Shown: one piece after another, positions 27,927 through 61,299 of the stretch | How the letters are laid out: every line of letters begins with the position of its first letter | Numbering within the stretch: the stretch's first letter is position 1 | The notes under the pieces: generated by a model | Seen by the model: only the letters and a program-made list of their open reading frames with translations | The model's database searches: none | Told to the model about the DNA's origin: nothing | NCBI GenBank assembly: GCA_902727985.1 | Contig: CACVAY010000112.1 | Coordinates: 1-64,000 of the forward strand | DNA from: an uncultured Thiotrichaceae bacterium | GTDB lineage: Bacteria; Pseudomonadota; Gammaproteobacteria; Thiotrichales; Thiotrichaceae | Length of the DNA stretch: 64,000 bases | Direction: 5' to 3' | Position numbers and translations under genes: made by a program

Positions 27927-29078
27927 CTACAAGTTCAGGTCAATAGGCTCTGCTTGACTCATGTGTTCAATAACGAGGTCGAGTTGTACTTGAGTTTCGT
28001 TTTCAAGGCTGTAGCTTTTTAGTTTGTCGAATAGTTCCTGTTGCTCAAGGATATAGCGTTCCCCAGAACTAAGTTGGACATAAGCAGCCCAAGGAATGAA
28101 TTTGGTGAGGACGTAGTCTTGATCTTCCTCTGGGGAAATATCAATATTTAAGCCCGAAATATAAACCAAATTGCGCCCCGCATAAGCAGGGTCTTGAGAG
28201 ACGCTTCGGAAGGCTCGATCAAACTCAGCTTCTGTATTTACCTGTGCAGATGTTAGCATTGGGTTTGATGAGGTAACAATCCATGGCATGGCGCGCATAA
28301 GATTTTTCTCAATCTGCTGCATGCTGTCGAATCCTCCCACTAAATCTGTTTGATAGGTATAGCTAAAATACTCGGGGAGTAAAGAGTCTCCTATCGCTTG
28401 TGGGCCAGAATTTATGTCAAAGAACCAATTCATGTGATCAAAAAAATCTTGCGTGGCTTGAAAGGTTCTGGATGTGCTTTGGATGGAGATGGGGATGTAT
28501 TCACCTTCGCTATGCATTTCTATCATTTTTTCGAGATTCAGCATTAAACTCAGTTCTCGAGTGCGAGATAAAAACTGATTGTCAATGGTGATTAGACAAC
28601 GTTTAGCGTGCATATCAACAAAAATATGATTTTTTGCGAATTCGTATTCTTTTAAATACCAATCAAGTACACCATGAATTTTTCCGCAGTTACTTGAGCA
28701 TTGCGAATGTTCGCTTTGGATACGACGGTACGTACCGTAGACTTTGGTTATAGGGTCATAGCCAACATGGCTGGCATGTAATATGAATAAATCCTTACCA
28801 TGATGTGCGTGCGGCCCGTGTCGTTCGCAGGCCATAATGCCGCCAACTTGTCCGTGATTGAAAGGAAACACACCAAAATGTTTAGCCAGTAAAATGATGG
28901 GGTAGCCTTGGCTCTCATCAGAACAGAAAGCACGTGAAGGCATGATTTTTCCAGTTTCAAAGCCTAAATCTAACAGCCAGTTGTGGAGTCTGGGAATGAA
29001 ATTACTATACCAAAACCAGTAGTGATCCATACGAAAATTACCGATTCTCGCCTGAATATTTTCACGAACATTATACAT
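27927..29078 (-). CDS. Probable LCIB/LCIC-type beta-carbonic anhydrase
   Basis: 383 aa, soluble, no signal peptide. Residues about 70-145 carry FNHGQVGGIMACERHGPH, LFILHASHVGYDP, YGTYRR and CSSNCGKIHGVLDWYL, which match in order and spacing the metal-binding pattern of the LCIB (limiting-CO2-inducible) family: Cys84, His104 and Cys127 or Cys131 are candidate zinc ligands, with the G-G before and the H-V-G strand. That assignment is from memory of the family. The C-terminal half (about 200-380) is unfamiliar. It diverges from csoS1D, sharing a gap with a CbbR-type operator, so a role in inorganic-carbon supply fits. It could also be an uncharacterised metal protein. Confidence 0.58.
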   Translation of the reverse strand: MYNVRENIQARIGNFRMDHYWFWYSNFIPRLHNWLLDLGFETGKIMPSRAFCSDESQGYPIILLAKHFGVFPFNHGQVGGIMACERHGPHAHHGKDLFILHASHVGYDPITKVYGTYRRIQSEHSQCSSNCGKIHGVLDWYLKEYEFAKNHIFVDMHAKRCLITIDNQFLSRTRELSLMLNLEKMIEMHSEGEYIPISIQSTSRTFQATQDFFDHMNWFFDINSGPQAIGDSLLPEYFSYTYQTDLVGGFDSMQQIEKNLMRAMPWIVTSSNPMLTSAQVNTEAEFDRAFRSVSQDPAYAGRNLVYISGLNIDISPEEDQDYVLTKFIPWAAYVQLSSGERYILEQQELFDKLKSYSLENETQVQLDLVIEHMSQAEPIDLNL

Positions 29079-31310: not shown

Positions 31311-32729
31311 ATGGCGAAGAAATACGAAGCTGGTGTTAAGGAATATCGGCAAACTTATTGGCAGCCAGAATATGTCCCGTTGGACTCTGATATTCTGGCA
31401 TGTTTTAAGATCAGCCCGCAACCTGGTGTTGACCGTGAAGAAGCTGCAGCCGCTGTGGCAGCAGAATCTTCAACAGGTACATGGACTACGGTATGGACTG
31501 ACCTTTTGACCGATATGGATTATTACCGTGGACGTGCGTACTCAATCGAAGACGTACCAGGTGATGATTCTTGCTTCTATGCATTTATCGCATACCCAAT
31601 CGATCTTTTTGAAGAAGGTTCGGTTGTAAACGTATTTACCTCTTTGGTAGGTAACGTATTCGGATTTAAAGCGGTACGTGCTCTACGTCTGGAAGACGTA
31701 AGATTCTCGCTACACTACATCAAGACATGTAATGGACCACCGCATGGTATCCAGGTTGAGCGTGATCATATGACTAAATATGGTCGTCCAATGCTGGGTT
31801 GTACTATCAAGCCTAAGCTTGGTCTATCGGCTAAAAACTACGGTCGTGCGGTATATGAAGTACTACGTGGTGGACTTGATTTCTCGAAAGATGATGAAAA
31901 CATCAACTCACAGCCATTCATGCGTTGGAGAGATCGCTTCTTGTTTGTTCAAGATGCAATCGAAACTGCTGAGGCTCAAACAGGTGAGCGTAAAGGTCAC
32001 TACCTTAACGTTACTGCTCCTTCTCCAGAAGAAATGTACGAGCGTGCTGAATTTGCTAAAGAGATTGGTTCTCCGATCATCATGCATGACTTCCTAACAG
32101 GTGGTTTGACTGCAAACACAGGTCTGGCTCGCTGGTGTCGTAAGAATGGTGTGTTACTTCACATTCACCGTGCAATGCACGCTGTACTAGATCGTAACCC
32201 ACATCACGGTATTCACTTCCGTGTTCTAACTAAAGCACTTCGTTTGTCAGGTGGTGATCATCTCCATACGGGTACGGTTGTTGGTAAGTTGGAAGGTGAC
32301 AGAGCGTCAACATTAGGTTGGATCGATTTACTACGTGAATCATTCGTTCCTGAAGATCGTTCACGCGGTATCTTCTTCGATCAGGACTGGGGTTCAATGC
32401 CTGGTGTATTCGCTGTTGCTTCGGGTGGTATCCACGTATGGCACATGCCTGCGCTAGTTAGCATCTTTGGTGATGACTCAGTACTCCAGTTTGGTGGTGG
32501 TACTCTTGGTCACCCTTGGGGTAACGCTGCTGGTGCTGCTGCTAACCGTGTCGCTTTGGAAGCGTGTGTAGAAGCTCGTAACCGTGGTGTTGAATTAGAA
32601 CGTGAAGGTAAGGAAATCCTTACTAAAGCTGCTAACTCAAGCCCAGAACTTAAGATCGCTATGGAAACATGGAAAGAAATTAAGTTTGAGTTCGACACAG
32701 TCGATAAGCTTGATACACAGAACCGTTAA
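31311..32729 (+). CDS. cbbL: RuBisCO large subunit, form IA (carboxysomal)
   Basis: 472 aa, standard length. Catalyses carboxylation of RuBP. Active-site motifs: [17 protein letters not shown] (catalytic lysine), [24 protein letters not shown] with the carbamylated lysine and Mg ligands, [14 protein letters not shown], and [35 protein letters not shown] strong GGAAGGAG site precedes the ATG. First gene of the alpha-carboxysome operon, with a short leader containing GCCTC-gtc-GAGGC (31260-31272). Confidence 0.99.
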
Positions 32730-32747
32730 TCTTAAGGAGTAAATAAT

Positions 32748-33077
32748 ATGTCTAATGTTGCAGACTTCAAACAGTCAATTAAATTTGAAACATTTTCTTA
32801 TTTACCTGCTTTAACATCTGAAGAAACTCGTGCTCAGATTCAATACATCGTTTCACAAGGTTGGAACCCTGCGATTGAGCATGTTGAGCCAGCACGTGCA
32901 GCTGATATTTACTGGTTCATGTGGAAGCTTCCCATGTTCGGTGAGCAGAGTGTTGATGAAATTCTTACAGAGCTAGAAGCGTGTAAGCGTGAATATCCGA
33001 ATCATCACATTCGTTTGATCGGCTATGACAACTATACGCAGAGTCAAGGGACAGCATTCGTTGTATATCGCGGCTAA
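32748..33077 (+). CDS. cbbS: RuBisCO small subunit, form IA
   Basis: 109 aa. Caps the L8S8 holoenzyme. Motifs: [33 protein letters not shown] and [41 protein letters not shown]. Good AAGGAG before the start; 18 bp after cbbL. Confidence 0.99.
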
Positions 33078-33104: not shown

Positions 33105-35456
33105 ATGCCACAAAATGTGACAAGCGCCGACAAAAAACGTATGGCGCAAGAGGCCCGGACACGGGCCGCACTAAAAAAGCAGAGCGGAGGTGGCAGGTCT
33201 CGTACAAGACCTGCAAGACCAAATGGTAGCGCGGCAGCGAGTGCCAGTTCTGATGTAACGATGACAGCCAATGCTCCTGCGAATGGCGCACCTTCTCAAG
33301 ATATCTCAGCAGCTAATACGTTAAGTGCTGAGATGTTGAAGGGGGCCGTTGATCAATTTGAGACTGCTGATGAAAACGTAGCAGACGAATTGTGTGAAAT
33401 GGTTGTTACCAACCCTGCAGCGTTAGGGTCGTTAACACCTGCTATTCGTAGGCTCTGTCGTAATCGCCGCAAAGTCATTTCCTCGAGAGGGAAAGTCGGT
33501 GTGATGAAAACGCGTAATGCATCGGGTACTTCTAGTAACGCGATGCTAGCGAATGCATTACTTGATGATGATGCGGGTTCGAGAGATTTTGCAAAGAGCC
33601 GACGTTCTGCTATCAGCAGGATGGGGCGAGGCAATAAGCCGAAAAGTCGGCCAAGTCGGCCTCAGCGTCCAAAAGTAGCGCCGCCTAAAGTTGAGGTTGG
33701 AACAACGCTATCCGGTGGTTCTGTTACAGGGACGCAGGTTGAACGTATTGAGAACGTTACAGGTAACGAGCAAGGAATATGTCGTTCGGTAACGGGTACT
33801 GAGTACATTGGTACTGAACAATTCTCCAACTTTTGTGATACCACTCCAGAGAAACCAACGCCGAAGGTTGGCGCAAGTCTTACGGTTTCAGGTGGGGCAG
33901 TTTCTGGCACAGAAATCGGACGTTCTGTAAAGATGACAGGTGATGAGCAAGGTTCATGTCAGGCGGTTACTGGTTCTGAATACCTTGGCGCTGAACGGTT
34001 TGCTGATTTTTGTGACAACAAGGGCTTAACTCAGCCAGCTAATAAAGTTGTTGCAGGAACTAGCCAGAAGCAAGGTATCTCGATTACTGGTGCTGACGAA
34101 GCCAGGCAGAATGCTACAACGGGGATGGAAATTGGTGCTGATAGACCTATTACAGGTTCTCAGTACACAGAAGTCTCTAAGGATTTGTCGAGTTACTCAT
34201 CTGGTCGTTCTAATTTGCCAAGCAAAATGGAGCGCCCTGAAGCACCTGGTGGATCAGGTGTTACTGGTGATGAATACAGTTCCTATGATGAGATTACTGG
34301 CTCAGATTATTCGTTCAATTCTCCGTCATTTTCTTATAGCAGAGCATCAAGTGAAGCTGCGCAAGTGCCGAGCAAAGTAGGTGTTGATGCCTCATGTTCG
34401 GGACAACGTATTACAGGCAACTTGGTCGATCGTTCTGAGAAAGTTACGGGTAATGAACATGGTTCTGATCGACATTTGACAGGTTCTCAGTACGGCCGTA
34501 ATAGCTGTGCACAGCCTTCAAAGGTTTCATCGACCCATGCTTTCGCGGGTGGTCGGTTGACTGGTAACAGGGTAGAACATGACCCAAAAATCAACGGTGA
34601 TGGGATCAGCGGGTGTCAACCTGTCACCGGAACGGAGCTACATGGTTTAGAGCAATTAGCTGACCATTGTTCCAGCACCCAAGTGCCTGTTTCAGCAGGG
34701 TTCGATAATACGCCACCGATGGTGCCGCCACAACCAGCAGTAGAGCCTCATGCGCATGATTTTGCACAGGCGATACCGCAACAGTTTGTGCAGCCAACAG
34801 TGGCGCATGTCCAGCCCCAGAACGCAGTGCCAGCAGCTGCTCCTCAGGGTGCATGCTGCAACCAATGTGCAGCGAGACAGTTAGCGGAACAGGCCGGTTT
34901 GTTACATGGTCACCAGCATCCGCAAGCTCAACCAGCCATGATGCAAGAGCCGCAAGCTCAGCATTATGTGCAACAAAATGTGGGGATGGTCACAGGCCCA
35001 AATAACATGGGCTTGGGAGTGGTTTCAGGTGTGCCTGAAGCACATTATCCACAACACGCTGTACAAACCACGGCAAATGTTCCTGTCTATCAGACGCAGA
35101 CAGCGCAATTTGCACAACAGCATGCATATCCTAACCCTAACGGGCAGGTGCAGCCTGTTGAACAAGCCCATGATCCCTTTTCTCATCGAGTTACAGGAGA
35201 AGGTCGTGATGATGGTTTGCCCATAACAGGTGATAACTGGGCGCGTGGTGATCAGGTAACTGGCACAGAAGGGCGTTGGTCGCAAGGCCGCAACCCTACG
35301 CTACAAGTGGACTCCAGAATGAATGTTCCGGGAGCGCATTTAAACAAAGGGATGGATCGTCCTCAAGCAGTAGAGCCTATTGCTCCAATAACCGGGAGTA
35401 GCGGTAATACTGAGTCAGGTGCACAGGTGACGGTATCGGGCGGAGCCCGAGGATAG
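33105..35456 (+). CDS. csoS2: Carboxysome scaffold protein CsoS2
   Basis: 783 aa, intrinsically disordered linker between RuBisCO and shell. The basic N-terminal region (to about residue 190) contains the helical RuBisCO-binding segments (e.g. KKRMAQEARTRAALKKQ, RRLCRNRRKVISSRGK). The middle has repeats of the SGxxVTG...VTGNEQG...VTGTEY type, several with the paired cysteines (SNFC, ADFC). The C-terminus carries ITGDNWARGDQVTGTEGRW and the typical closing VTVSGGARG. Unusual is a Q/P/H-rich stretch (about residues 527-686) with a CCNQC motif between repeats and C-terminal peptide. I could not identify a definite slippery site for the -1 frameshift known in some species. Confidence 0.96.
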   Translation: MPQNVTSADKKRMAQEARTRAALKKQSGGGRSRTRPARPNGSAAASASSDVTMTANAPANGAPSQDISAANTLSAEMLKGAVDQFETADENVADELCEMVVTNPAALGSLTPAIRRLCRNRRKVISSRGKVGVMKTRNASGTSSNAMLANALLDDDAGSRDFAKSRRSAISRMGRGNKPKSRPSRPQRPKVAPPKVEVGTTLSGGSVTGTQVERIENVTGNEQGICRSVTGTEYIGTEQFSNFCDTTPEKPTPKVGASLTVSGGAVSGTEIGRSVKMTGDEQGSCQAVTGSEYLGAERFADFCDNKGLTQPANKVVAGTSQKQGISITGADEARQNATTGMEIGADRPITGSQYTEVSKDLSSYSSGRSNLPSKMERPEAPGGSGVTGDEYSSYDEITGSDYSFNSPSFSYSRASSEAAQVPSKVGVDASCSGQRITGNLVDRSEKVTGNEHGSDRHLTGSQYGRNSCAQPSKVSSTHAFAGGRLTGNRVEHDPKINGDGISGCQPVTGTELHGLEQLADHCSSTQVPVSAGFDNTPPMVPPQPAVEPHAHDFAQAIPQQFVQPTVAHVQPQNAVPAAAPQGACCNQCAARQLAEQAGLLHGHQHPQAQPAMMQEPQAQHYVQQNVGMVTGPNNMGLGVVSGVPEAHYPQHAVQTTANVPVYQTQTAQFAQQHAYPNPNGQVQPVEQAHDPFSHRVTGEGRDDGLPITGDNWARGDQVTGTEGRWSQGRNPTLQVDSRMNVPGAHLNKGMDRPQAVEPIAPITGSSGNTESGAQVTVSGGARG

Positions 35457-35476
35457 AAGGTTAAGAGGATTAGTTT

Positions 35477-37069
35477 ATGAATACACGAAATGCATACGCT
35501 ATTCGAGCGGCAAAAATGCAAAACAGTCGAACGACGAGAAGTCGTAGGGTTGCTACTGCATCGGCGCCAGCTGGATTAGCGCTTGCAAACGCAGATTCTA
35601 CTCCTGTTCCTCTAGAAGAGGCTGCTGCAGCATTGTCTACTCAATCTTGTAGCAGTCTTCCTCCTCGTCATACCAGGCATCCGTTAACGGATGGATACAT
35701 GAATGCGCGCTTGGCGCATTGTGAAGAGTCAGTGAATGGCCGCTTCGACGCGATCATTCCTGCATTAAGAGCCATAGCAGATCGTCCCTATGGTAGTGGC
35801 TACGACAATGACGTGCAGAAAATTGCAAGTCAGTATCTTGGCTATAAATTACCTCAATCCAGTCTGGAGTACGCTTGGATTGAAGGCCCCAATATGAAGA
35901 AGCTGTATGGGCATTGTGCCTTTACAGCACTACAAAAGTCGGTGGAGCAATTCACTGATGATTTGAAAAATCAAGTAGAGACTGTTCAGGATACCCGTAA
36001 TTTCTTTTTAGATTGTGGTTATCACGCGGTTGACATCAGTCCTTGTTCCGATGGTCGCTTGAAAGGACTCATGCGCTACATCTTGAGGCTGCCCTTATCA
36101 TCATTTACGCGTCGAAAAGCATACGCAGGTGCATTATTTGATGTTGAAACCGATGTGAAACATTGGGCAGATACCGAATTAAAACGTTTTCGTGAGGGTG
36201 TACCTTCAACAGTTGATTCAGGAACACGCTACCTGAAAATAGCGGTATATCATTTCAGTACCAGTATGCCAACGCATGAAGGATGTGCAGCTCACGGAAG
36301 TAATGATAAACAAGCGATTGGTGCGGCAATAGAACGCCTTGAGCAGTTTAAAGAAGCTATCGAAAACTCCTTTTGCTGTGGGGCAACGACCGATATTTTA
36401 CTAATTGGCGTTGATACCGATAACGATTCGATTCGTGTTCATACCCCTGACTCAACCGGCAAGATAAATGCTTATCGTTATGTTGATAATGCTGAATTAT
36501 ATGCCTCAACAGTTAGTCTTACAGAAGATGATGGTCGCATTAGTGTTCACGAAACCATTAGAAACTCTTGCATGCAGGATGGGTGGGCGAAAGCAGACGG
36601 TGAGCCTCATGAGGGCATGCGTCGTCTTATAGCAAACTTATTAATAAACAATCTTTCGCAGATTGATTATGTTTCAGACCTCTACGGTGGTGTCTATTCC
36701 GATATTGGCCATGGCGAAAAATATATCAGCGTGGGGGACGGCATTGAAGAAGTACAGATGCGCAACCTCGCTTATTACGCTCACCTCCACACATTGGAAG
36801 AAGGTGTGGCTGACATGGATGTTGGTATTAAGATCTTGACTGGCTTGAATGTGAAACACGGTTTGCCGATTCCTATCGCCATTCATTATCGCTATGACGC
36901 CAAAGTACCTAGCGCACGTGAACGTGTGATTGAAAAAGCGCAGCGTGTAAAAGCGGCTATCCAGAAGCGTTATGCGGACTTGGATAAAGAAGATTTCCTA
37001 GCTTTTCAGTTAACCATACAAGATCGTCCAACAGGTAGTGAGTTCGAGCTTGTGGAGAGCGCGTTATGA
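35477..37069 (+). CDS. csoSCA: Carboxysomal carbonic anhydrase CsoSCA
   Basis: 530 aa, divergent beta-class carbonic anhydrase on the inner face of the shell, converting bicarbonate to CO2 for RuBisCO. Candidate zinc ligands are Cys190, His259 and Cys270, with the Asp192-Arg194 dyad in PCSDGR; the spacings (69 and 11 residues) equal those of the characterised Halothiobacillus enzyme (C173, H242, C253). The basic, disordered N-terminus (about 1-60) is where CsoSCA binds RuBisCO. It overlaps csoS4A by 4 bp. Confidence 0.96.
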   Translation: MNTRNAYAIRAAKMQNSRTTRSRRVATASAPAGLALANADSTPVPLEEAAAALSTQSCSSLPPRHTRHPLTDGYMNARLAHCEESVNGRFDAIIPALRAIADRPYGSGYDNDVQKIASQYLGYKLPQSSLEYAWIEGPNMKKLYGHCAFTALQKSVEQFTDDLKNQVETVQDTRNFFLDCGYHAVDISPCSDGRLKGLMRYILRLPLSSFTRRKAYAGALFDVETDVKHWADTELKRFREGVPSTVDSGTRYLKIAVYHFSTSMPTHEGCAAHGSNDKQAIGAAIERLEQFKEAIENSFCCGATTDILLIGVDTDNDSIRVHTPDSTGKINAYRYVDNAELYASTVSLTEDDGRISVHETIRNSCMQDGWAKADGEPHEGMRRLIANLLINNLSQIDYVSDLYGGVYSDIGHGEKYISVGDGIEEVQMRNLAYYAHLHTLEEGVADMDVGIKILTGLNVKHGLPIPIAIHYRYDAKVPSARERVIEKAQRVKAAIQKRYADLDKEDFLAFQLTIQDRPTGSEFELVESAL

Positions 37070-37317
37070 GAATTATGAAAGTCGAAAAGACGCTTGTTTC
37101 TACCAACCGCGTCGCTGAACTAGGGCATAGACCACTTTTAGTGGTTAAAGATAAAGAAGATGGTACGCCATTAGTCGCTGTTGATTCTATTGGCTGTGTT
37201 GTAGGTGATTGGGTTATTTGCGTAGGTTCTTCGGCAGCGCGTGAAGCGGCAGGGTCGAAGTCTTACCCATCTGATTTAACGATTATCGGCATCATTGATC
37301 ACTGGGAAAAAGTTTAA
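37066..37317 (+). CDS. csoS4A: Carboxysome pentameric vertex protein CsoS4A
   Basis: 83 aa bacterial microcompartment vertex (BMV/EutN-CcmL) protein. MRIMKVEKTLVSTNRVAELGHRPLLVV and GDWVICVGSSAARE...DLTIIGIIDHWE are typical. Pentamers cap the twelve icosahedral vertices. Its start overlaps the csoSCA stop (ATGA) and csoS4B follows after 2 bp. Confidence 0.97.
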   Translation: MRIMKVEKTLVSTNRVAELGHRPLLVVKDKEDGTPLVAVDSIGCVVGDWVICVGSSAAREAAGSKSYPSDLTIIGIIDHWEKV

Positions 37318-37319
37318 GC

Positions 37320-37574
37320 ATGGAAATCATGCGTGTTCAGTCTGATTTAGTGACGACCAGAAGAGTTCCTGGACTCAAACAGATGTCTTTGAGAGTCCTT
37401 GTTGATTTAAAAGGAAATCTCAGCGTTGGATGTGACCCAGTTGGCGTCCCTGTAGGGAAGTGGGTATTTACAGCAAGTGGTTCTGCTGCAAGATTTGCAT
37501 GCGGTGACCCTGATGTACAAACAGATCTGACGATCGCGGGAATCATTGATCATTGGGATCCGTCAGAGTCGTAG
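37320..37574 (+). CDS. csoS4B: Carboxysome pentameric vertex protein CsoS4B
   Basis: 84 aa paralogue of CsoS4A: MEIMRVQSDLVTTRRVPGLKQMSLRVLVD ... GKWVFTASGSAARFACGD...DLTIAGIIDHWD. Translationally tied to csoS4A by a 2-bp gap. Confidence 0.97.
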   Translation: MEIMRVQSDLVTTRRVPGLKQMSLRVLVDLKGNLSVGCDPVGVPVGKWVFTASGSAARFACGDPDVQTDLTIAGIIDHWDPSES

Positions 37575-37660: not shown

Positions 37661-37954
37661 ATGGCAGAAGTAACAGGTATTGCCTTGGGAATGATTGAAA
37701 CACGTGGGCTAGTTCCTGCGATCGAAGCTGCTGATGCCATGACTAAGGCCGCAGAAGTTAAGCTAATTGGACGTCAGTTCGTTGGTGGTGGTTACGTAAC
37801 AGTTTTAGTACGTGGTGAGACAGGTGCAGTCAACGCAGCAGTTCGTGCTGGTGCAGATGCATGTGAGCGTGTTGGTGACGGTATTGTTGCTGCGCATATT
37901 ATCGCTCGCGTACATTCGGAAGTTGAATCTATTTTGCCAGCTGGCATTGAATAG
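37661..37954 (+). CDS. csoS1: Carboxysome hexameric shell protein CsoS1 (copy 1)
   Basis: 97 aa single BMC domain (GIALGMIETRGLVPAIEAADAMTKAAEVKLIGRQFVGGGYVTVLVRGETGAVNAAV). Hexamers tile the shell facets. AAGGAG precedes the ATG. One of three nearly identical tandem copies. Confidence 0.98.
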   Translation: MAEVTGIALGMIETRGLVPAIEAADAMTKAAEVKLIGRQFVGGGYVTVLVRGETGAVNAAVRAGADACERVGDGIVAAHIIARVHSEVESILPAGIE

Positions 37955-37985
37955 TATTTTTTAAAGTTGAAATGAGGATTTAAAA

Positions 37986-38303
37986 ATGGCTGAAGCTACA
38001 GGAATAGCCCTAGGAATGATTGAAACACGCGGTCTGGTACCTGCTATAGAAGCAGCTGATGCCATGACAAAAGCTGCTGAGGTTCGTCTAGTTGGTCGCC
38101 AGTTTGTTGGTGGTGGTTATGTAACGATTTTGGTTCGTGGTGAGACAGGTGCGGTAAACGCAGCGGTACGTGCAGGCGCAGATGCATGTGAACGTGTTGG
38201 AGATGGTATTGTTGCTGCACACATTATCGCTCGTGTTCACTCAGAAGTGGAAAGTATTCTACCGAAGGCTGGTGAAGCTGCTGAACAAGCAACTATTGGT
38301 TAA
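37986..38303 (+). CDS. csoS1: Carboxysome hexameric shell protein CsoS1 (copy 2, with C-terminal extension)
   Basis: 105 aa, identical to its neighbours at most positions (R and V for K and I at the KLIG position; I for V in TILV). It has a longer tail PKAGEAAEQATIG than the other two. The nucleotide sequence differs at many silent sites, so the copies are not a fresh duplication. Confidence 0.98.
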   Translation: MAEATGIALGMIETRGLVPAIEAADAMTKAAEVRLVGRQFVGGGYVTILVRGETGAVNAAVRAGADACERVGDGIVAAHIIARVHSEVESILPKAGEAAEQATIG

Positions 38304-38331
38304 TTAATAAATATTTTAAGGAGATAAAACA

Positions 38332-38628
38332 ATGGCAAACGTATCAGGTATTGCATTGGGAATGATCGAAACACGCGGCTTGGTCCCTGCGATTGAAGCT
38401 GCAGACGCAATGACTAAGGCAGCAGAAGTAAAGCTGATTGGTCGTCAATTTGTAGGCGGCGGTTATGTCACTGTCTTGGTACGTGGTGAAACAGGTGCGG
38501 TAAATGCTGCTGTTCGCGCCGGTGCTGATGCGTGTGAACGTGTAGGTGACGGTATCGTTGCTGCTCACATTATCGCTCGTGTACATTCTGAGGTTGAAAG
38601 CATTCTGCCTACTTCAATAGAAGATTAA
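38332..38628 (+). CDS. csoS1: Carboxysome hexameric shell protein CsoS1 (copy 3)
   Basis: 98 aa, nearly the same protein as copy 1, starting MANVSGIALG. AAGGAG lies before the ATG. It is the last shell gene; a hairpin CTACCCA/TGGGTAG (38631-38651) directly after the stop may protect or partly terminate the shell-gene transcript. Confidence 0.98.
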   Translation: MANVSGIALGMIETRGLVPAIEAADAMTKAAEVKLIGRQFVGGGYVTVLVRGETGAVNAAVRAGADACERVGDGIVAAHIIARVHSEVESILPTSIED

Positions 38629-38843: not shown

Positions 38844-39134
38844 ATGGCTGATTCAAGTGATTTGACAGATTGGAGGATTGATAACAAACCTCCAGTGATG
38901 ACAAAACGGTATGAATTTGAGTCTTACGATAAGACGCGTCTTTTCGTCAATGCGCTCGCAGACTTATCAGAAAATACCGGGTATTTTCCAAATCTGACTT
39001 TTAGCCAGACCCAAGCTACTGTAACTATTTTTACAGATGAGCCAAAGCTCGGAGATAAAGAATTTGATTTTGCTTTAGATACAGACAAGATTGGTTCGCA
39101 ATACAGCAAGATCTCTGTAAGTAATTATGACTAA
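38844..39134 (+). CDS. acRAF / pterin-carbinolamine-dehydratase-like RuBisCO assembly factor
   Basis: 96 aa PCD-like fold. LTDWRIDNKPPVMTKRYEFESYDKTRLFVNALADLSENTGYFPNLTFSQTQATVTIFT follows the dehydratase fold, but the catalytic histidine motif (usually [E/D]-x3-H-[H/N]-P) is replaced around GYFPNLTF. That loss is typical of the alpha-carboxysome RuBisCO assembly chaperone rather than an enzyme. AAAGGAGA precedes the ATG. It follows the shell genes after two hairpins. Confidence 0.85.
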   Translation: MADSSDLTDWRIDNKPPVMTKRYEFESYDKTRLFVNALADLSENTGYFPNLTFSQTQATVTIFTDEPKLGDKEFDFALDTDKIGSQYSKISVSNYD

Positions 39135-39205: not shown

Positions 39206-39631
39206 ATGAAAAAAACTACAACGACTAAGACAGAGAAAAAAGCTGTCGCCAGTAAAGCCTCTGTTGAAAAAAAAGAAACAGCGACAACTGTCAGCGCCAA
39301 AAGTGCACCTAAATCTACTGCTGCAAAGCCGAAAGCAGAAAAGGCAAAACCTGCTGCTAAGGCTAAGCCAAAAGTAGCTGCAACGAAAAAGAAAGAATCG
39401 GCAGCTAAAGCAAAGCCAGCTGCAACTAAAGCGAAGCCAAAGGTTACCGCTAGCAAAACAAAACCCACTGCAAAAAAAGCTACACCTAAAAAGAAGCTGC
39501 CAACCAAACCTGCAAAATCACAGAAGCAGAAAGTCATTGATATGGCGGCAAACCAAACTGGACAAGATGTACCAGATTTGAATTCAGATAGTAATTATCC
39601 AGTACATCCAAGCCGTATTTGGCCTGATTGA
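39206..39631 (+). CDS. Lys/Ala-rich disordered protein with WPD tail, candidate McdB-like carboxysome positioning factor
   Basis: 141 aa. Residues 1-110 contain 36 Lys and 25 Ala in PAAKAKPK-type repeats like bacterial histone H1 (HctB/AlgP) tails, giving a highly basic disordered region likely to bind DNA. The last about 30 residues change abruptly to an acidic/polar segment ending SNYPVHPSRIWPD. In alpha-carboxysome operons this slot is often held by McdB, a disordered protein with a tryptophan near its C-terminus, as I recall. No McdA ATPase is adjacent. The ribosome site is weak. A 10-bp hairpin (39630-39659) overlaps the stop. Function is inference. Confidence 0.6.
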   Translation: MKKTTTTKTEKKAVASKASVEKKETATTVSAKSAPKSTAAKPKAEKAKPAAKAKPKVAATKKKESAAKAKPAATKAKPKVTASKTKPTAKKATPKKKLPTKPAKSQKQKVIDMAANQTGQDVPDLNSDSNYPVHPSRIWPD

Positions 39632-39691: not shown

Positions 39692-42034
39692 ATGGCTATT
39701 CAGTTAAGTGATTACCAAGAAGAATTAGATGCACTTAGTGAGAATGCTCACGATGTGCTTGAAGCTAATTGGCAAGATGCTGCGCGTGTTTTTTCTCCGC
39801 GTGGCCTAGATCATTATCTGAAAGCTGCTGCGGCTTTGAGTCACTTAGGACGTGGTGAAGACCTTGTGTTTTCATTTCTTGAAAGTGCGCCGATGGTGGC
39901 AAGAGAAATAGGTGAGGATGCTGTTTCTGAGCTATTTTCGTTTGCCATTCAAATGTATTCGCGTACGAATTCTGAAGTACTGGTTTTACTCTTCACAACT
40001 GCTCCAACGGCTGCACAACGTTTAAACGAGATTGGCCTGTTTAACGGTTATATCTCGTTGCTCAACACGCTGCTTGCTCAAGCCCCACGTGCTTTACGCC
40101 CGATGTTTGAGAAGCTTGACCTCTTATTAAAATACTTAACACTAGGTGGTTTACGACGTTGGGTCATGTGGGGTGCATCGGCTTACAAAAACGATTTCGA
40201 AGCTCAGGCTGAATATTTCAGTCTCGCTAGCGATGAATCAAAAGCGATTATGAATAAAGAGCAGCGTGGCGTTCTATTTGTGGATGTGCAGCGTCGGCTC
40301 ATCATGTATTTGCGCGCGCTATGGGGGCAAGACTTCTTTTTGCGTCCAACCTCGGGTGATTTTGAGACACGAGAAGGTTATAAACCTTTCATTGAATATA
40401 ACTTTATCAATCTTCCCGATGCTTTTGATAACGTGATGGAAGATAAAGAAGTGAAAGTGCAAGGTTTGGAAATATACCGAGCTGCAGCTGCACACGCCTC
40501 TGCGCATATCAAATATTCTAAGTACGATCCTGACTTTGAGAGCTATTCCGCGATCCAACGTGCTCTGATTGGTTTAATCGAGGATGCCCGAGTAGAGAAG
40601 CTTGCTATAGAGGAGTTTCCGGGCTTAAAGCAATTATGGGCAAGTCTCTCCGAAATTGGTGAAAATAGCACTGACATTGGCATGTTGCTTGATAAAACGG
40701 CGATTGCACTCGCGAATCCTGATTTTTATTGTGATGATGCTTTTGTAGCGACAGCTCGACAGCTATTTAATGCTTCTGCTGATCGTATGGAAGATCAAGA
40801 GCTTGCCAAAGACTTAGGCTTACAATTGGCTGAAAAGTTTGGCGAGCTTGGCTATGTGTTTAATACCCGTCTCGATCAGTCATCCATTGTTTATCGTGAT
40901 GACAACCGTTATCTCTGGCAGGATCCTGAAGAAGAGGATCCAACTATTCTTCCTGGTAAAACACGACAGGTAAGACGGTATGCCAGTGTCATGGAGATGT
41001 TAAATAATCTCGATGTACAGGAAGCGACGGATGACGCAGAAGAGATTTGGGTGTTAGCAACAGAATTCTTCCATGATGATGGAACCAGTTTAAATGACTT
41101 AGAAGGAAAAGAGCCTACTGCTTCACCCGTGCATTATCCGGAATGGGATTATCAAACACAGCTAGAACGACCGAATTGGGTTACCGTGTTAGAAAAGCGC
41201 CCTAAAGTGGGTGAGCTTGAAGATATTGAAGAAACGATTGAAAAACATAAGCCGATTATTTCACGTTTAAAGCATATGATTGAGGCTGTACAGCCGCAAG
41301 GCTTGGTTCGTGAGCGCAAGATGGAAGATGGCGACACTATCGACATTGATGCGGCGGTTGCTTCAATGGTTGATATCCGTATGGGTATGCAGCCTGACCC
41401 AAGGATAAATATCCGAACGCATCTTCAGGTTCGTGATTTATCCGTGTTATTACTCATCGATTTATCTGAATCAACGAATGACCCAGTGAAAGGCGCTTTT
41501 ACTGAAGGCGAAGAGGAAGTCTCTGTCCTTGACCTTGCCCGTGAAGCCTCTGTATTGCTTGCTGAAGCGCTTGCGAAAATAGGCGACCCATTTGCGATTC
41601 ATGGCTTTGATTCAGATGGTCGACATGATGTTGAATATTATCGCTACAAAGATTTTGATGCGCCGTATAATGATATAGTAAAGGGTCGATTGTCAGGTAT
41701 GACAGGGCAATTATCGACACGTATGGGAGCAGCCTTGCGTCATGCAGGCTCAGTATTAGCTGAAAAGGCCAGCCAAAAGAAGTTAGTGATTGTGCTTACA
41801 GATGGTGAACCTTCTGATAATGATGTTCGTGATCCGCAATATCTGCGTCATGATACCAAACATGCAGTCGATGATCTGGCTAAGCAAGGTGTTCGTACAT
41901 TTTGCTTAAGTCTGGATCCTTATGCCGATGATTATGTCTCAAGTATTTTTGGTCAAAAGAATTATCTCGTGCTTGATAATGTATTGCGTCTACCGGAAAA
42001 GCTACCCGCTCTTTACTTGGGTATGACTCGCTAA
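39692..42034 (+). CDS. cbbO: RuBisCO activase subunit CbbO (VWA domain)
   Basis: 780 aa. The C-terminal von Willebrand A domain has a MIDAS motif in LLLIDLSESTND (DxSxS), a later threonine/aspartate site and VIVLTDGEPSDND. The large helical N-terminal part is typical of CbbO. With the AAA+ ring CbbQ it removes inhibitory sugar phosphates from RuBisCO. cbbQ, which normally lies directly before cbbO, is not here. The ATG follows CTAAGGATGA. Confidence 0.93.
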   Translation: MAIQLSDYQEELDALSENAHDVLEANWQDAARVFSPRGLDHYLKAAAALSHLGRGEDLVFSFLESAPMVAREIGEDAVSELFSFAIQMYSRTNSEVLVLLFTTAPTAAQRLNEIGLFNGYISLLNTLLAQAPRALRPMFEKLDLLLKYLTLGGLRRWVMWGASAYKNDFEAQAEYFSLASDESKAIMNKEQRGVLFVDVQRRLIMYLRALWGQDFFLRPTSGDFETREGYKPFIEYNFINLPDAFDNVMEDKEVKVQGLEIYRAAAAHASAHIKYSKYDPDFESYSAIQRALIGLIEDARVEKLAIEEFPGLKQLWASLSEIGENSTDIGMLLDKTAIALANPDFYCDDAFVATARQLFNASADRMEDQELAKDLGLQLAEKFGELGYVFNTRLDQSSIVYRDDNRYLWQDPEEEDPTILPGKTRQVRRYASVMEMLNNLDVQEATDDAEEIWVLATEFFHDDGTSLNDLEGKEPTASPVHYPEWDYQTQLERPNWVTVLEKRPKVGELEDIEETIEKHKPIISRLKHMIEAVQPQGLVRERKMEDGDTIDIDAAVASMVDIRMGMQPDPRINIRTHLQVRDLSVLLLIDLSESTNDPVKGAFTEGEEEVSVLDLAREASVLLAEALAKIGDPFAIHGFDSDGRHDVEYYRYKDFDAPYNDIVKGRLSGMTGQLSTRMGAALRHAGSVLAEKASQKKLVIVLTDGEPSDNDVRDPQYLRHDTKHAVDDLAKQGVRTFCLSLDPYADDYVSSIFGQKNYLVLDNVLRLPEKLPALYLGMTR

Positions 42035-44306: not shown

Positions 44307-47300
44307 ATGATTTTGTTATCTGTGCTTATATTAGCATGTCAGAGATTCTTTCTTTCGAGCGTAATAAATAGATCTTCCTTGCTGGCGTATGATGGTTTTT
44401 ATGTGTCTTTTCTTCTACGAATCTTCAAAAAATCACCTTCTTTTAGGGCAAAAACTGTCCCTATATATGGCGTGATAGTGAATGTTTTACTGATTACATC
44501 TGTCCATGCAGGAACGACGGTTACTGTTTCTGATGAGGCGTTCGGTAATAATGCAACAGGACGTTCACAAGCAGCTACCTTGGATGATGCTTGGGTTAGT
44601 TCGCTCCCGAGTGGTATTTTTAGTCCTGATCTATTTAGTGGGGGAGCAGGATATACAGGGACAAAAACATTTGTTGATACAACCGGTGCGGCTTACACCG
44701 TCGATTGGCGACTCGGATATGTGCAGGATACAGGGCCAGGCACACCCACATCTACAAGTTTTCATTTAGCGACTGGAGGCACTCCTACTTATGGTGTATC
44801 TACTCAAATTCAATCAAATGCGCCTAACCCTTTAAGTAGTGAAACCCGATTATCTGTCAAGGTTAGCGGTAGCACCGTTTTATCTGCAATGGAGCTCAGT
44901 TTTGTTAATAGTGCGACAACGGTGTATGAATTCGGGATATTTATTGGTGACTTGGAGTCACGTCCGGTACATGGAACGACAGGTCGTGCGATTGTTTATG
45001 ATACCTTGGGAGGGCTGTTAACGGATACGCCTATCGTTTATACGGGAGCCGTATTGAACGGCACGAATTACACCGTGACAGAGCTCACTCCCTCTGGTGC
45101 AGCAGGAAACAATAGTGGGGATTGGGGGAATGAAACCACGGCCTTTTTGACGATTAAATCTGATCAGCCAATCGGAAAAGTTATTTTTCATGTGGGTGAT
45201 GATGACCATACCACTGGTAATACGGGCATCAGTGAGCAATTAGGTTTTGTTGGTTTCCAGTTGCCTGAAGTTCCCTATGTGCCACCAACAATAACTGGCA
45301 ACCCATCTCCCGATACCGATGGTGACGGTGTACTGGATGGTGAAGATATTGATGATGATAACGATGGCATTCTGGATGTCTCGGAGAAGGTGTGTAGTAC
45401 GATTCCGTTAGATCTGTCAGGCGTGACAAATACCAGTCCTGCACTGAGTAATCGCGCTTTATCAGCAATGGTTGGTGCGGGGACTTTCACCTCGAATATA
45501 ACGACGAACTATAGTAGTTCTGATTCAGTCAAACCTGAAGGATTGGCTGATGGGGATTTGCGTTTGGGTAACACGGATCAAACAGAGATTTCCGAGTATG
45601 AAGTCACTTTTGCGTACCCCACGGATATCAAATTGTCACAGGCTAATGTGTACGGTGCATTCGAAGAGCAAGAAACATGGACGATTACAACAGATGGCGG
45701 GGCTATGATAGTGAATAATCCGGTTATCAATGCCACAACATCAAACGCAAACAACTTTAACGATACCGAATTACGCAATGTGACAGGTAATAATAGCCAG
45801 CAGGTCAGTTTTGTACCCAATCAGCTCAATAGTACGGGGCAAATAATGCCAGCAGATTCACAATGGCATATTGTTGCTAAAGATGTCACTCGGTTAGTCG
45901 TTCGCTTGGAAACAACTACATTAGGTAACAATTGGGCGCGTATAAGACTAGCTGTTGATTGTGTGCCATTGGATAGTGATGGAGACGGTTTTGCCAACCA
46001 CCTTGATTTGGATAGTGATAATGATGGTATTCCAGACAATATAGAAGCGCAAAAAACAGAAACCTATATAGTGCCAGACCAGACCTACAACGTGGACGGT
46101 TTAGATACTGCGTATGTGGCTAGCAATGGATTAAGCCCGGTTAATACCGATGATACAGATATACCCGATTATCTGGATACCGATGCAGACAATGATGGTG
46201 AATTTGATATTGTTGAATCAGGGCTTGGGAATAATGATAGTGATGGAGATGGCAGAACAAATAATACTGTCGGCAACAATGGTCTGGATAATGCGGCAAC
46301 GATCGAAAGTGCGGATAATTATAGCGATGTGAATGGGCTTGCACATGATGGCAGTATTTTTACCCTCCTTGATAGCGATGATGATACGGATCCAACAGGT
46401 GTGAATGCCTCTCCCGTGGTTACAGATGTAGATTACAGAGATATTCCTGTTGATTATAGTGATGCTCCTGTGAGTGGAGTAGCTCCTGATGGCAGTAGTC
46501 TCAATGCTTATGGGGCAGCCAGCCATATTATTGTGGATGGTTTGTATCTGGGGGCGGGCATACCTGATGAGGATGGTGCGAATCAGCCCTCCACCAATGC
46601 AGATGGCGATGACAATGATGGTATCGATGATGAAGATGGTATTGGTTTACCTTCCCTCGTAGCAGGTGATACAGCGTATACCATTGCGACTGCTGATATA
46701 GCGGCGAACGGTAGTGGCACTTTGCACGCCTGGATCGACTTTGATGGCAACGGTGTTTTTGATGCTGATGAGCATACAAGTACGGCAGTGAATAACGGAA
46801 CGGTCGTTGCAACATTGAGCTGGACAATCGATGGGGTAGGTGGAAACCCTGATTTCACAGTGATAGGTGGGAAGACTACCTTTGCTCGTTTTCGCCTAAG
46901 TTCCGATACTTCTATTACTGCGAGTACACCTGCTTCTCTTGCCACTGATGGGGAGGTTGAAGATTATGCCCTAACCATTGAGCATATGCGTTTATCTGTC
47001 AGCGGGCGTGTTTTCAACGATGCCAATGTTGATCGTGTGAATGATTCAGGAGAGAAGGGGGTGAGTGGCTTGCCTGTCGTACTCTTCGATGGAACTCACT
47101 GTGTGAGTACTCGTACTGGAAGTGATGGTAACTATATCTTCACAGACGTAGCGCCGGGTAACTACCAGGTTTACGAGGCCTCACGAGAGGCAGTACCCGT
47201 GCCAATAAATTGTGGTATTGGGAATGCCAAGGACTCCAACAATTATCATTCAAGCACCTTGAATGCTACAGCCTTATTTGTGGTGAATAATGTTGATGTA

Positions 47301-48092
47301 ACAGGTGTTGACTTTGGTGATGTGAAAAAGCCGACGTTCAAACCTGATAATAGTGGAACAATCCTACCTGGAAATGTGCTCTTGTATCGCCATGAGTTTG
47401 TTCCACTAAGCACAGGTAGCGTCAGTTTCAGCAGTGCGAACGCCATACCAGCAACTTCAGGTTGGTCGCAGGTGCTTTATCAAGATGCGGACTGTAATGG
47501 CGAGTTAAATGGTCATGAAACCGCTGCTCCAGTTGGCGCGGATCTTGTGACAACCGCAGGTACGGCCATTTGTTTGATCAATAAGGTGTATGCGCCAAGT
47601 AATGTGGGTGGGGGCGAAGATTACAGCAATGTGATTACTGCTGATTTCACGTTTGGCAACCCGGCGAATACAACCGCAGGAACGATATCGCTAAGCGTGA
47701 CAGATCTGACTAAAGCGGCGGCAAATAATGTACAAGGCGTATCTCGTTTAGCGCTTAAGAAGACTGTGCAGACCTATCGAGGGACACCTTTAGCAGCTGT
47801 TTCGGCAGAATCAGAAACACAAAATCAGGCTCAGCCTGGTGATGTTCTCAAGTATCGCATCTATTACAGCAATACTGGAGATGCCCCGTTGAGTGATCTA
47901 AACATCAAAGATGTTGTGCCTGAGTTTACGAGTTTGAATGGTTCGCCATTGTGCGAAGTCCCATTGCCAGCCAGTTTGACGAGCTGTACAGCACTGGTCA
48001 GTGGCAGTGATATTGAATGGAGCTTCCCTGTTAGTGATAAGCTAAATGGGGGGAGTAGTGGGATGGTGAGTTATGAGGTGAAAATTGACTAA
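44307..48092 (+). CDS. Large secreted multidomain protein (TSP3, GEVED, SdrD-B-like, DUF11 domains)
   Basis: 1261 aa. After an N-terminal hydrophobic signal ([18 protein letters not shown], about residues 51-68) comes an unassigned beta-rich domain. Thrombospondin type 3-like calcium repeats follow ([22 protein letters not shown]; a second set near [22 protein letters not shown]), then a GEVED domain ([13 protein letters not shown]...[14 protein letters not shown]...[11 protein letters not shown]), an SdrD-B-like beta-sandwich ([32 protein letters not shown]...[15 protein letters not shown]), and a DUF11-like repeat at the end ([29 protein letters not shown]). Probably exported and surface-bound or released, with a role in adhesion. 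The N-terminus is unusually long before the signal; a GTG near 44403 would give a more normal one. No C-terminal anchor or autotransporter domain is seen. Confidence 0.85.
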
Positions 48093-59442: not shown

Positions 59443-60354
59443 CTAATTAGGAAAATGCAGATTTGGTTTTTTTGCCCAAAAATCGAGGAAAGGGATTTGC
59501 TCACCCATACCCATACCGATATGCACGCCGTTATTGCTCTGATGCAGCAGGGTGTTAAATGCATAGTCAGGGTTGATGTCCAGCAAGCCCAAAGCCAGTT
59601 CGGTAACATTGGTTTGCCACTCCCTGCCATCACAAAGCTCAACCAGCTCACCAGTCATATCTTTACCACCAAGCACCAAACCAGTAATCGCATTATTTTC
59701 GATCTGCAGACGGTTATTCCCTTGCCGGGATAAATCGCGCATTTCCTGCATCAATGGCAGGCTTTGTTGCCATAGTTCTTGATAGTTGGCTTGATACAAT
59801 AAGCCATCAATCGTGATTTCACCGACCAGGCTAAAGGTAGAAGTGGGTGCTTCCAGGTTCAGGATTGAAGCTTTAAGGAATTCAGTGAGGGAGTACAGGT
59901 AGCCGGATTCCAGTTCCTTCTCATAACTGGCGATTTCGACTTCTTCCGAAATATGGCAATGTAAGGACGCACCAGGGGTTTGTATGTTGATTTGATCGTA
60001 GGATAGCAATTGTTCATAGGCCGCATCGCGCTGCGCCAACAGGGCTGCATAATCTATCGTCAGTAATGTCTCTAGCGTATAGCGGAGTGGGTCAATACCA
60101 CCTCCAGCCTTGGATTGCGTCATTTGTACGACTGTGCCACCCGCTGTATCCCAAAGCGGTTCCATGCCGTATTGACTCGTGTAATCTGAGATTAGCCACA
60201 AGACAGCTTCAGTATTGGCAGCAAAGTCAAATCTGGCAGTAAGCGCAACCTGCTGAAAGCCTAGTTGGCGTACTGCGGCTTCAGTTTGCTCATTATCCAC
60301 CACCACATGCAAATCGCGCGCCTGTAAGTGGGTTAAAAATTCAAGATCTCGCAT
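59443..60354 (-). CDS. M29-aminopeptidase-like protein, CgnB/CgnE type (copy 2)
   Basis: About 303 aa, homologous along its length to the next gene. Shared motifs: YSLTEFLKASILNLEAPTSTFSLVGEITIDGLLYQ / YSIAEFFETSIVNLADNKSSFCVDG; AITGLVLGGKDMTGEL / SITKMVLGGQDFTAKM; and the end TELALGLL...GVHIGMGMGEQIPFLDFW. M29 aminopeptidases bind two metals through E/H/D in TE-hGxN, ExGTxHhAxG and SxxHxD. Here the last H-x-D reads IPFLDF, so a ligand is lost, suggesting an inactive, peptide-binding protein like CgnB/CgnE of crocagin biosynthesis. An upstream TTG (60363) is possible. Confidence 0.7.
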   Translation of the reverse strand: MRDLEFLTHLQARDLHVVVDNEQTEAAVRQLGFQQVALTARFDFAANTEAVLWLISDYTSQYGMEPLWDTAGGTVVQMTQSKAGGGIDPLRYTLETLLTIDYAALLAQRDAAYEQLLSYDQINIQTPGASLHCHISEEVEIASYEKELESGYLYSLTEFLKASILNLEAPTSTFSLVGEITIDGLLYQANYQELWQQSLPLMQEMRDLSRQGNNRLQIENNAITGLVLGGKDMTGELVELCDGREWQTNVTELALGLLDINPDYAFNTLLHQSNNGVHIGMGMGEQIPFLDFWAKKPNLHFPN

Positions 60355-60372
60355 TGGTATCAAAAGCCGGGG

Positions 60373-61299
60373 TTAATGGACAAATTCAAGCCGTGCCCCC
60401 GCCGAGATAAAATCAACATGCGAGGTATCTACCGCAATACCAATACCAACATGCATACCAACAATGCCTTCATTCATAATGGAATTAATGCGCCAGTCCG
60501 GCATCTTGGGATGGTTAACTACGCCAAAAGCGAATTCAGTTAAGGAAAGTCCACGTATCGAGTCTGCAAAGGCTTCATTCATTTTGGCAGTGAAATCTTG
60601 GCCACCCAGAACCATTTTAGTAATGCTGTTGTCCTGACATTCGAGCCAGTTATCACCTTTGACTGATAGGTTTACCATCTCGGTTAGTAGAGGGGCAAAC
60701 TCTGTTTTCAATTCCGGTGAATTTTCTAGGTAACTCAGTCCGTTAAAAACTAGCTTGCCATCAACACAGAAAGAAGATTTATTATCTGCAAGATTAACAA
60801 TGGAGGTTTCAAAAAACTCGGCAATAGAATACAGCCAGCCTTCCTCCAGTTCAGCATCATAATTGGCGACTTCCACCTCTTCCGCCAAAACCCCAGTCAG
60901 AACACTATTTTCACCGCTGTGAATGTTAATAAGCTTAGCAGACAGCGCTTTTTCATAAAGCACGTCTCTATGTGCGAGCGTTGCCGCATAATCGGGTATA
61001 TCCAATATTTTTTGGATTGAGTAATCCACTGCTTGCAATGAGCCATCAAATTTAGCAGCAGCAAGATGTACAAATATTCCACCGCAATTATCCCAAAGTT
61101 CTTTGTTCATTCGATACTGAGAAGGATAAGTACTCAACAAGACAAATACCGGATCAGTATTAGCAGCAAAATCAAAATCAGCAAAATCAGCAAAGTCGGT
61201 AAACCCATGTTTGCGAAATAGATCTGTTATCGCATTATCATCAGTAATAACCAATAGCTTTCTTTCCCGAAACATATTCAGAAATTCATGGGTTTTCAT
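60373..61299 (-). CDS. M29-aminopeptidase-like protein, CgnB/CgnE type (copy 1)
   Basis: 308 aa paralogue of the downstream gene, 9 bp to 18 bp apart. Near the C-terminus it keeps more of the metal-site pattern than its sister: SLTEFAFGVV, GMHVGIGIAVDTSHVDFISAGARLEF, with the H-V-G and S-H-x-D histidines in place. It could therefore still bind metal, or simply be less decayed. Paired homologous proteins of this size directly after a tiny peptide gene ending in YW match the crocagin cluster layout, where CgnB and CgnE bind the precursor peptide and guide its cyclisation (recalled, not looked up). Confidence 0.72.
   Translation of the reverse strand: MKTHEFLNMFRERKLLVITDDNAITDLFRKHGFTDFADFADFDFAANTDPVFVLLSTYPSQYRMNKELWDNCGGIFVHLAAAKFDGSLQAVDYSIQKILDIPDYAATLAHRDVLYEKALSAKLINIHSGENSVLTGVLAEEVEVANYDAELEEGWLYSIAEFFETSIVNLADNKSSFCVDGKLVFNGLSYLENSPELKTEFAPLLTEMVNLSVKGDNWLECQDNSITKMVLGGQDFTAKMNEAFADSIRGLSLTEFAFGVVNHPKMPDWRINSIMNEGIVGMHVGIGIAVDTSHVDFISAGARLEFVH

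Follow-up and report, generated by a model that had tools for sequence, protein, structure and literature searches.

Results

A lysine-rich protein between acRAF and CbbO

The window analysed here is a stretch of 64,000 nt from the draft genome of an uncultured Thiotrichaceae bacterium (positions 1 to 64,000 of contig CACVAY010000112.1, assembly GCA_902727985.1; G000 below), and it carries a complete alpha-carboxysome gene set on the forward strand. The set comprises cbbL and cbbS for form IA Rubisco (31311..33077; assigned by a domain search for cbbL and by synteny), csoS2, csoSCA, csoS4A and csoS4B (33105..37574; Pfam/NCBIfam), three tandem, near-identical copies of the shell gene csoS1 (37661..38628; read as ORFs, the third of which gave a BMC domain match), the pterin-dehydratase-like Rubisco assembly factor acRAF (38844..39134), a small ‘slot’ gene, and cbbO, encoding a Rubisco activase subunit (39692..42034; a neighbour shared with relatives). 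The slot gene (39206..39631, forward strand, ATG start) encodes a protein of 141 aa; acRAF ends about 70 bp upstream of it and CbbO starts 60 bp downstream. Pfam matches on both flanks (PF01329, Pterin_4a, for acRAF and VWA for CbbO) bear out the position given in the first-pass annotation, which had seen in this gene a histone H1-like protein with an McdB-like end.

The composition of the protein is likewise as first described. Residues 1-110 hold exactly 36 Lys and 25 Ala, together with 10 Pro, five Glu and neither Asp nor Arg, and the protein then switches to an acidic tail, with five Asp and no Glu or Lys in the final 31 residues and SRIWPD as its C-terminus. At 25.5%, its Lys content is the highest among the window ORFs of at least 100 aa, the runner-up having 12%. 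The 141-aa sequence gave no Pfam or NCBIfam match at an E value of 0.1.

Several other genes of this genome deserve mention in their own right. Near the carboxysome locus, a 1261-aa ORF with SdrD_B and GEVED domains (44307-48092) is probably a surface protein. Long ORFs without a Pfam match at 1e-5 lie upstream of the locus (27927-29078) and near glycosyltransferase/sulfotransferase genes (59443-60363 and 60373-61299). A single CbbQ-type gene was found in the genome, on a contig other than that of this cbbO (contig C140; L172:940-1887). It is preceded, at a distance of about 450 bp, by a short remnant of the start of a cbbL gene (L172:424-500; 17 codons, 82% identical to the CbbL start in the window), which suggests that a second Rubisco operon was lost.

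The tail identifies the slot protein as an orphan alpha-McdB

McdB is the adaptor between carboxysomes, the carbon-fixing compartments of bacteria, and the machinery that positions them, in which McdA is the usual motor partner. The published C-terminal consensus of alpha-McdB proteins is R(V/I)WPD with an invariant Trp (PMC11321042). Association with carboxysomes requires this Trp, and in Halothiobacillus neapolitanus McdB the final 10 residues are enough for it (PMC11321042). The slot protein ends in SRIWPD, within a conserved tail, DLNSDSNYPVHPSRIWPD (39575..39628, forward strand), which the slot-protein alignment and the published consensus mark as a presumed carboxysome-docking motif. The slot proteins of relatives can be aligned only at this end, as DLN-x(4-5)-P-x-HP-x-R(I/V)WPD; in the tails of 11 aligned proteins D, L, N, P, H, P, R, W, P and D are invariant and the remainder varies freely. 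Searched for at the DNA level, R-[I/V/M]-W-P-D-stop has a single match in the 3.54-Mb genome, the slot gene itself. Since this match is unique in the genome and the tail is found at the corresponding slot of 12 other carboxysome genomes of the family, it is not a chance resemblance. The other features of the group are present too: a complete cso operon surrounds the gene, and the protein is predicted to be disordered (AlphaFold) and is biased in composition, with no coiled coil. We are thus confident that the slot protein is an orphan alpha-McdB (‘type 2’), and the McdB-like end is a stronger resemblance than originally claimed, as it matches the alpha-McdB consensus and its setting in the carboxysome operon is shared by several genera.

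A second McdB in the same genome was also sought; a loose WPD-stop pattern gave seven matches, with the R(I/V)WPD reading only in the slot gene. A longer tail pattern found no match in a phylum-wide sample besides the window itself, so that such orphans are either rare beyond the relatives already found or carry other tails.

No alpha-McdA was found in the genome

G000, a draft that is 99.4% complete, was searched with the ParA-family profile PF13614 and two McdA protein queries. No alpha-McdA was found: what matched was Soj, MinD, ATPases that are larger or Mrp-like, and an unrelated ParA locus shared by the whole family; the Cocleimonas McdA query gave no match at 1e-10. As a yardstick, the query used gives scores of about 130-450 bits for alpha-McdA proteins encoded beside a type 1 McdB. 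The best match to an McdA query was a ParA on contig 63 (29-31% identity), which was rejected as McdA on account of a locus conserved in carboxysome-less relatives. The chromosomal ParA was set aside for its Soj-ParB neighbourhood (L001) and MinD for lying in MinCDE (L002). The absence of McdA noted earlier is thus borne out in the window and, within the limits of the draft assembly, in the whole genome.

The contig-63 ParA-like gene (L083:769-1386; also L062 and L066) is conserved throughout the family, carboxysome-less members included. In its uncharacterised locus an A/P/E-rich protein is encoded upstream, and two membrane proteins, one TPR-like and one with a coiled coil, are encoded downstream. 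Upstream of this ParA locus in G004 (L066:1-468), near-perfect repeats of the KAAPKAKAEPKA type make up an open frame for another H1-like low-complexity protein.

The orphan is kept in McdA-free relatives

The family, which includes Leucothrix pacifica (G022), Cocleimonas (G014) and Thiothrix caldifontis (G006), is represented by 63 genomes, and CsoSCA was found in 14 of them. Thirteen of these 14 encode the slot protein, the exception being G082. McdA is present only in G014 and G074, whose McdA proteins, 69% identical to each other, both precede a type 1 McdB; the other 12 carboxysome genomes are McdA-free, and 11 of the 12 have kept the orphan, among them two single-contig assemblies (G029 and G076). 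In G082, acRAF is directly followed by cbbO (L115:11121-11164), with no slot gene, McdA or visible replacement, which makes this genome a natural knock-out for comparison. The T. caldifontis group (L112:11120-11620; L114, L117, L118 and L120) has an extra ORF of ~155-166 aa between the orphan mcdB and cbbO; it appears NTF2-like by eye, and its called frame can overlap the end of mcdB.

Beyond the family, orphan slot proteins are encoded by Lamprocystis purpurea, one Chromatiaceae MAG and three Proteobacteria MAGs. McdA is apparently, if less certainly, absent from these five carriers, their best ParA matches scoring at most 100 bits. One further MAG, MO_103.B15, combines a slot protein with a nearby mcdAB.

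The basic arm is variable, predicted to be disordered and not associated with McdA absence

Composition and AlphaFold delimit a disordered basic arm rich in Lys, Ala and Pro (residues 1-105; 39206..39520, forward strand), followed by a short predicted helix (residues 106-116, the SQKQKVIDMAA region; 39521..39553, forward strand). In the model of the 141-aa protein (mean pLDDT 61, pTM 0.17) there is no secondary structure before residue 106, and these 11 residues form the single helix; in the alignment a similar stretch is seen in G071, G005 and Leucothrix pacifica, and is absent in Thiothrix. Within residues 1-110 there are five AKP, three KPA and two KPAA units. Repeat expansion was considered as the origin of the arm and rejected, as there are no tandem repeats at the DNA level.

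Taken as the 124 residues ahead of the last 17, the arm has a net charge of +28. Among relatives, arm length ranges from 48 to 178 residues and net charge before the last 17 residues from -3 to +37: it is +37 in G005, +31 in L. pacifica, +18 in MO_103.B15 and +15 in Cocleimonas G014; two Thiothrix have values of +7 and +8, and the T. caldifontis group spans -3 to +1. The family's three longest and most charged arms (+28 to +37) all belong to McdA-free genomes. Across 19 slot carriers (16 without and three with McdA), however, arm charge showed no association with the absence of McdA (p = 0.82, relatedness being ignored). Basic arms occur together with McdA in Cocleimonas G014 and in MO_103.B15 (L125), and most McdA-free Thiothrix have neutral arms. 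These counterexamples, with the lack of association, led us to discard the H1-like arm as a special replacement for McdA. In addition, the McdA-partnered type 1 McdB of G014 (McdB1) is 29% Lys, and among the type 1 proteins examined its linker ranks second in charge density; a Lys/Ala/Pro-rich linker thus recurs in alpha-McdBs and is no mark of ParA-free positioning. Lower genomic GC may be a cause of the Lys in disordered arms.

Discussion

Synteny points to where the slot gene came from. In a survey of the class, McdA lies directly upstream of each of the 21 genuine McdB genes found outside the family, many of them in the order acRAF-mcdA-mcdB-cbbO, and the window order acRAF-mcdB-cbbO is the same slot minus mcdA. 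Because the gene occupies the mcdAB site of these genomes, descent from an McdA-partnered McdB, with loss of mcdA and of the N-terminal helix, is its most likely origin. In H. neapolitanus McdB this helix, which spans the first 20 residues and depends critically on K7, is both required for McdA binding and sufficient for it (PMC12204374). AlphaFold predicts no such N-terminal helix in the slot protein, whose N-terminus, MKKTTTTKTEKKAVASKASV, has T7 in place of K7 and, with no I, L, V, F or M between M1 and V14 and alanine as the sole hydrophobic residue there, lacks a hydrophobic face. McdA-bearing genomes fall in separate groups of the CsoSCA tree, a scatter that could reflect either repeated loss or transfer.

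Based on these observations we can outline how such a protein might act in a cell without McdA. By homology with the Halothiobacillus McdB tail, the DLN...HPxRIWPD end would dock the protein on the alpha-carboxysome surface, while the disordered Lys/Ala/Pro-rich arm may contact DNA non-specifically. Passive, ATPase-free tethering would then keep the carboxysomes spread over the nucleoid, much as has been described for storage granules: PhaF, PhaM and AlgP use H1-like Lys/Ala/Pro domains to tether granules to the nucleoid or space them there, with no ParA involved, and the disordered K/A/P-rich domains of PhaF and AlgP bind DNA (PMC9239181, PMC5658603, PMC13052382). We put the whole of this explanation (docking by the tail, descent from McdB and passive ATPase-free tethering by the arm) at somewhat short of an even chance, and hold its central step, passive contact between arm and nucleoid, with similar reserve. 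The stronger proposal, in which an H1-like DNA-binding arm replaced the McdA-binding helix and tethers carboxysomes directly, so that a microcompartment analogue of PhaF or AlgP arose from the partner of an ATPase, strikes us as less likely still. The first-pass annotation had raised carboxysome positioning that skips the ParA-type ATPase; the absence of McdA and the precedent of PhaF, PhaM and AlgP speak for that idea, but the basic arm turned out not to be tied to the loss of McdA. Nor can a DNA tether be the common function of all orphans, as most Thiothrix slot arms are neutral, also without McdA.

The main rival of the DNA-contact reading is that the protein forms a coat or condensate layer: the tail docks, and the disordered arm, whether basic or neutral, acts as a steric or electrostatic brush, or as part of a condensate, that prevents clumping without binding DNA. 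This would suit basic and neutral arms that all share one tail, as well as an arm for which AlphaFold predicts no fold, and McdB proteins are in fact known to form condensates, with carboxysomes aggregating when McdB is lost (PMC11321042, PMC8262871). It does not explain, however, the strong H1-like bias to Lys, Ala and Pro in one lineage group, where Arg and Asp are nearly missing from the arm, and an arm that is free and polylysine-like should encounter DNA or RNA; we judge it a serious candidate with perhaps one chance in four. A simpler view, that the protein is a residual McdB which kept its docking tail after the loss of McdA while the arm drifted in length and composition with little or no positioning function left, accords with the spread of arm length and charge among relatives, with the missing gene in G082 and with the Lys expected from mutational bias in lower-GC genomes. 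Yet neutral decay would not keep a tail strictly conserved over several genera and other families (Lamprocystis and others) in reading frames that are all intact, and we regard this view as improbable.

Two further readings keep the arm as a binding element and give it another partner. Positioning might still be ATP-driven if the arm bound a different ParA/MinD-type ATPase, such as Soj, MinD or the family-wide ParA of contig 63; G000 has such ATPases, and a basic N-terminus is what ParA partners usually use for binding (PMC12204374). The missing McdA-binding N-terminal helix makes this quite improbable, as does the fact that the contig-63 type of ParA has neighbours of its own and occurs in the carboxysome-less genomes G003 and G004. 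Alternatively, the arm could bind Rubisco, CsoS2 or RNA and serve carboxysome assembly instead of positioning. Basic disordered segments are able to bind acidic partners, and Rubisco is the target of the neighbouring acRAF and CbbO. Against such a role, the RIWPD tail is a positioning-adaptor motif and type 1 McdB shares the operon position together with McdA, and we find it the least probable of the readings considered.

Reviews have left open the role of orphan McdB proteins without an McdA partner (PMC8262871, PMC12918739). What is new here is a basic-armed orphan McdB in genomes that lack McdA, and around it a natural series without McdA, including Leucothrix pacifica and Thiothrix caldifontis, in which arms range from neutral to very basic. 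This series makes it testable whether McdB can act without its ATPase and whether arm charge decides attachment to the nucleoid. If the tethering proposal is true, an energy-dependent positioning system would have turned passive, in convergence with the tethers of storage granules.

Comparison with known systems

Among the closest counterparts of the slot protein is alpha-McdB type 2, which MacCready et al. (2021), as cited in PMC8262871, describe as an orphan in the cso operon that has no charged N-terminus and accompanies a distant mcdAB. The likeness to that description lies in a cso-operon gene without an mcdA neighbour and in a disordered protein with no coiled coil that ends in R(V/I)WPD with the invariant Trp. 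In contrast to it, the N-terminal arm of the window protein is strongly basic (+28 over 124 residues), and no mcdAB was found in the window genome, while the relatives G014 and G074 do have a distant mcdAB. The uncharged N-terminus of the cited description is seen in most Thiothrix slot homologues, but not in the window protein. With alpha-McdB type 1, as in H. neapolitanus and the acRAF-mcdA-mcdB-cbbO genomes, the slot protein shares the tail motif and, minus mcdA, the operon position, and some type 1 members also have Lys/Ala/Pro-rich linkers; unlike them, the window gene has acRAF instead of mcdA upstream, and its product has neither the McdA-binding helix nor K7.

In its supposed workings the slot protein resembles PhaF and PhaM of PHA and PHB granules and AlgP of polyphosphate granules, which likewise join a cargo-binding end to a disordered H1-like Lys/Ala/Pro domain. 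The comparison concerns workings, as the window protein is unrelated to these proteins by any matched domain: neither a phasin domain nor the AlgP N-terminal domain was found (Pfam/NCBIfam, E 0.1), and it has two perfect KPAA units against 25 in the repeat region of AlgP. The H1-like part is N-terminal in the window protein and C-terminal in the granule proteins, and the presumed cargo is a carboxysome.
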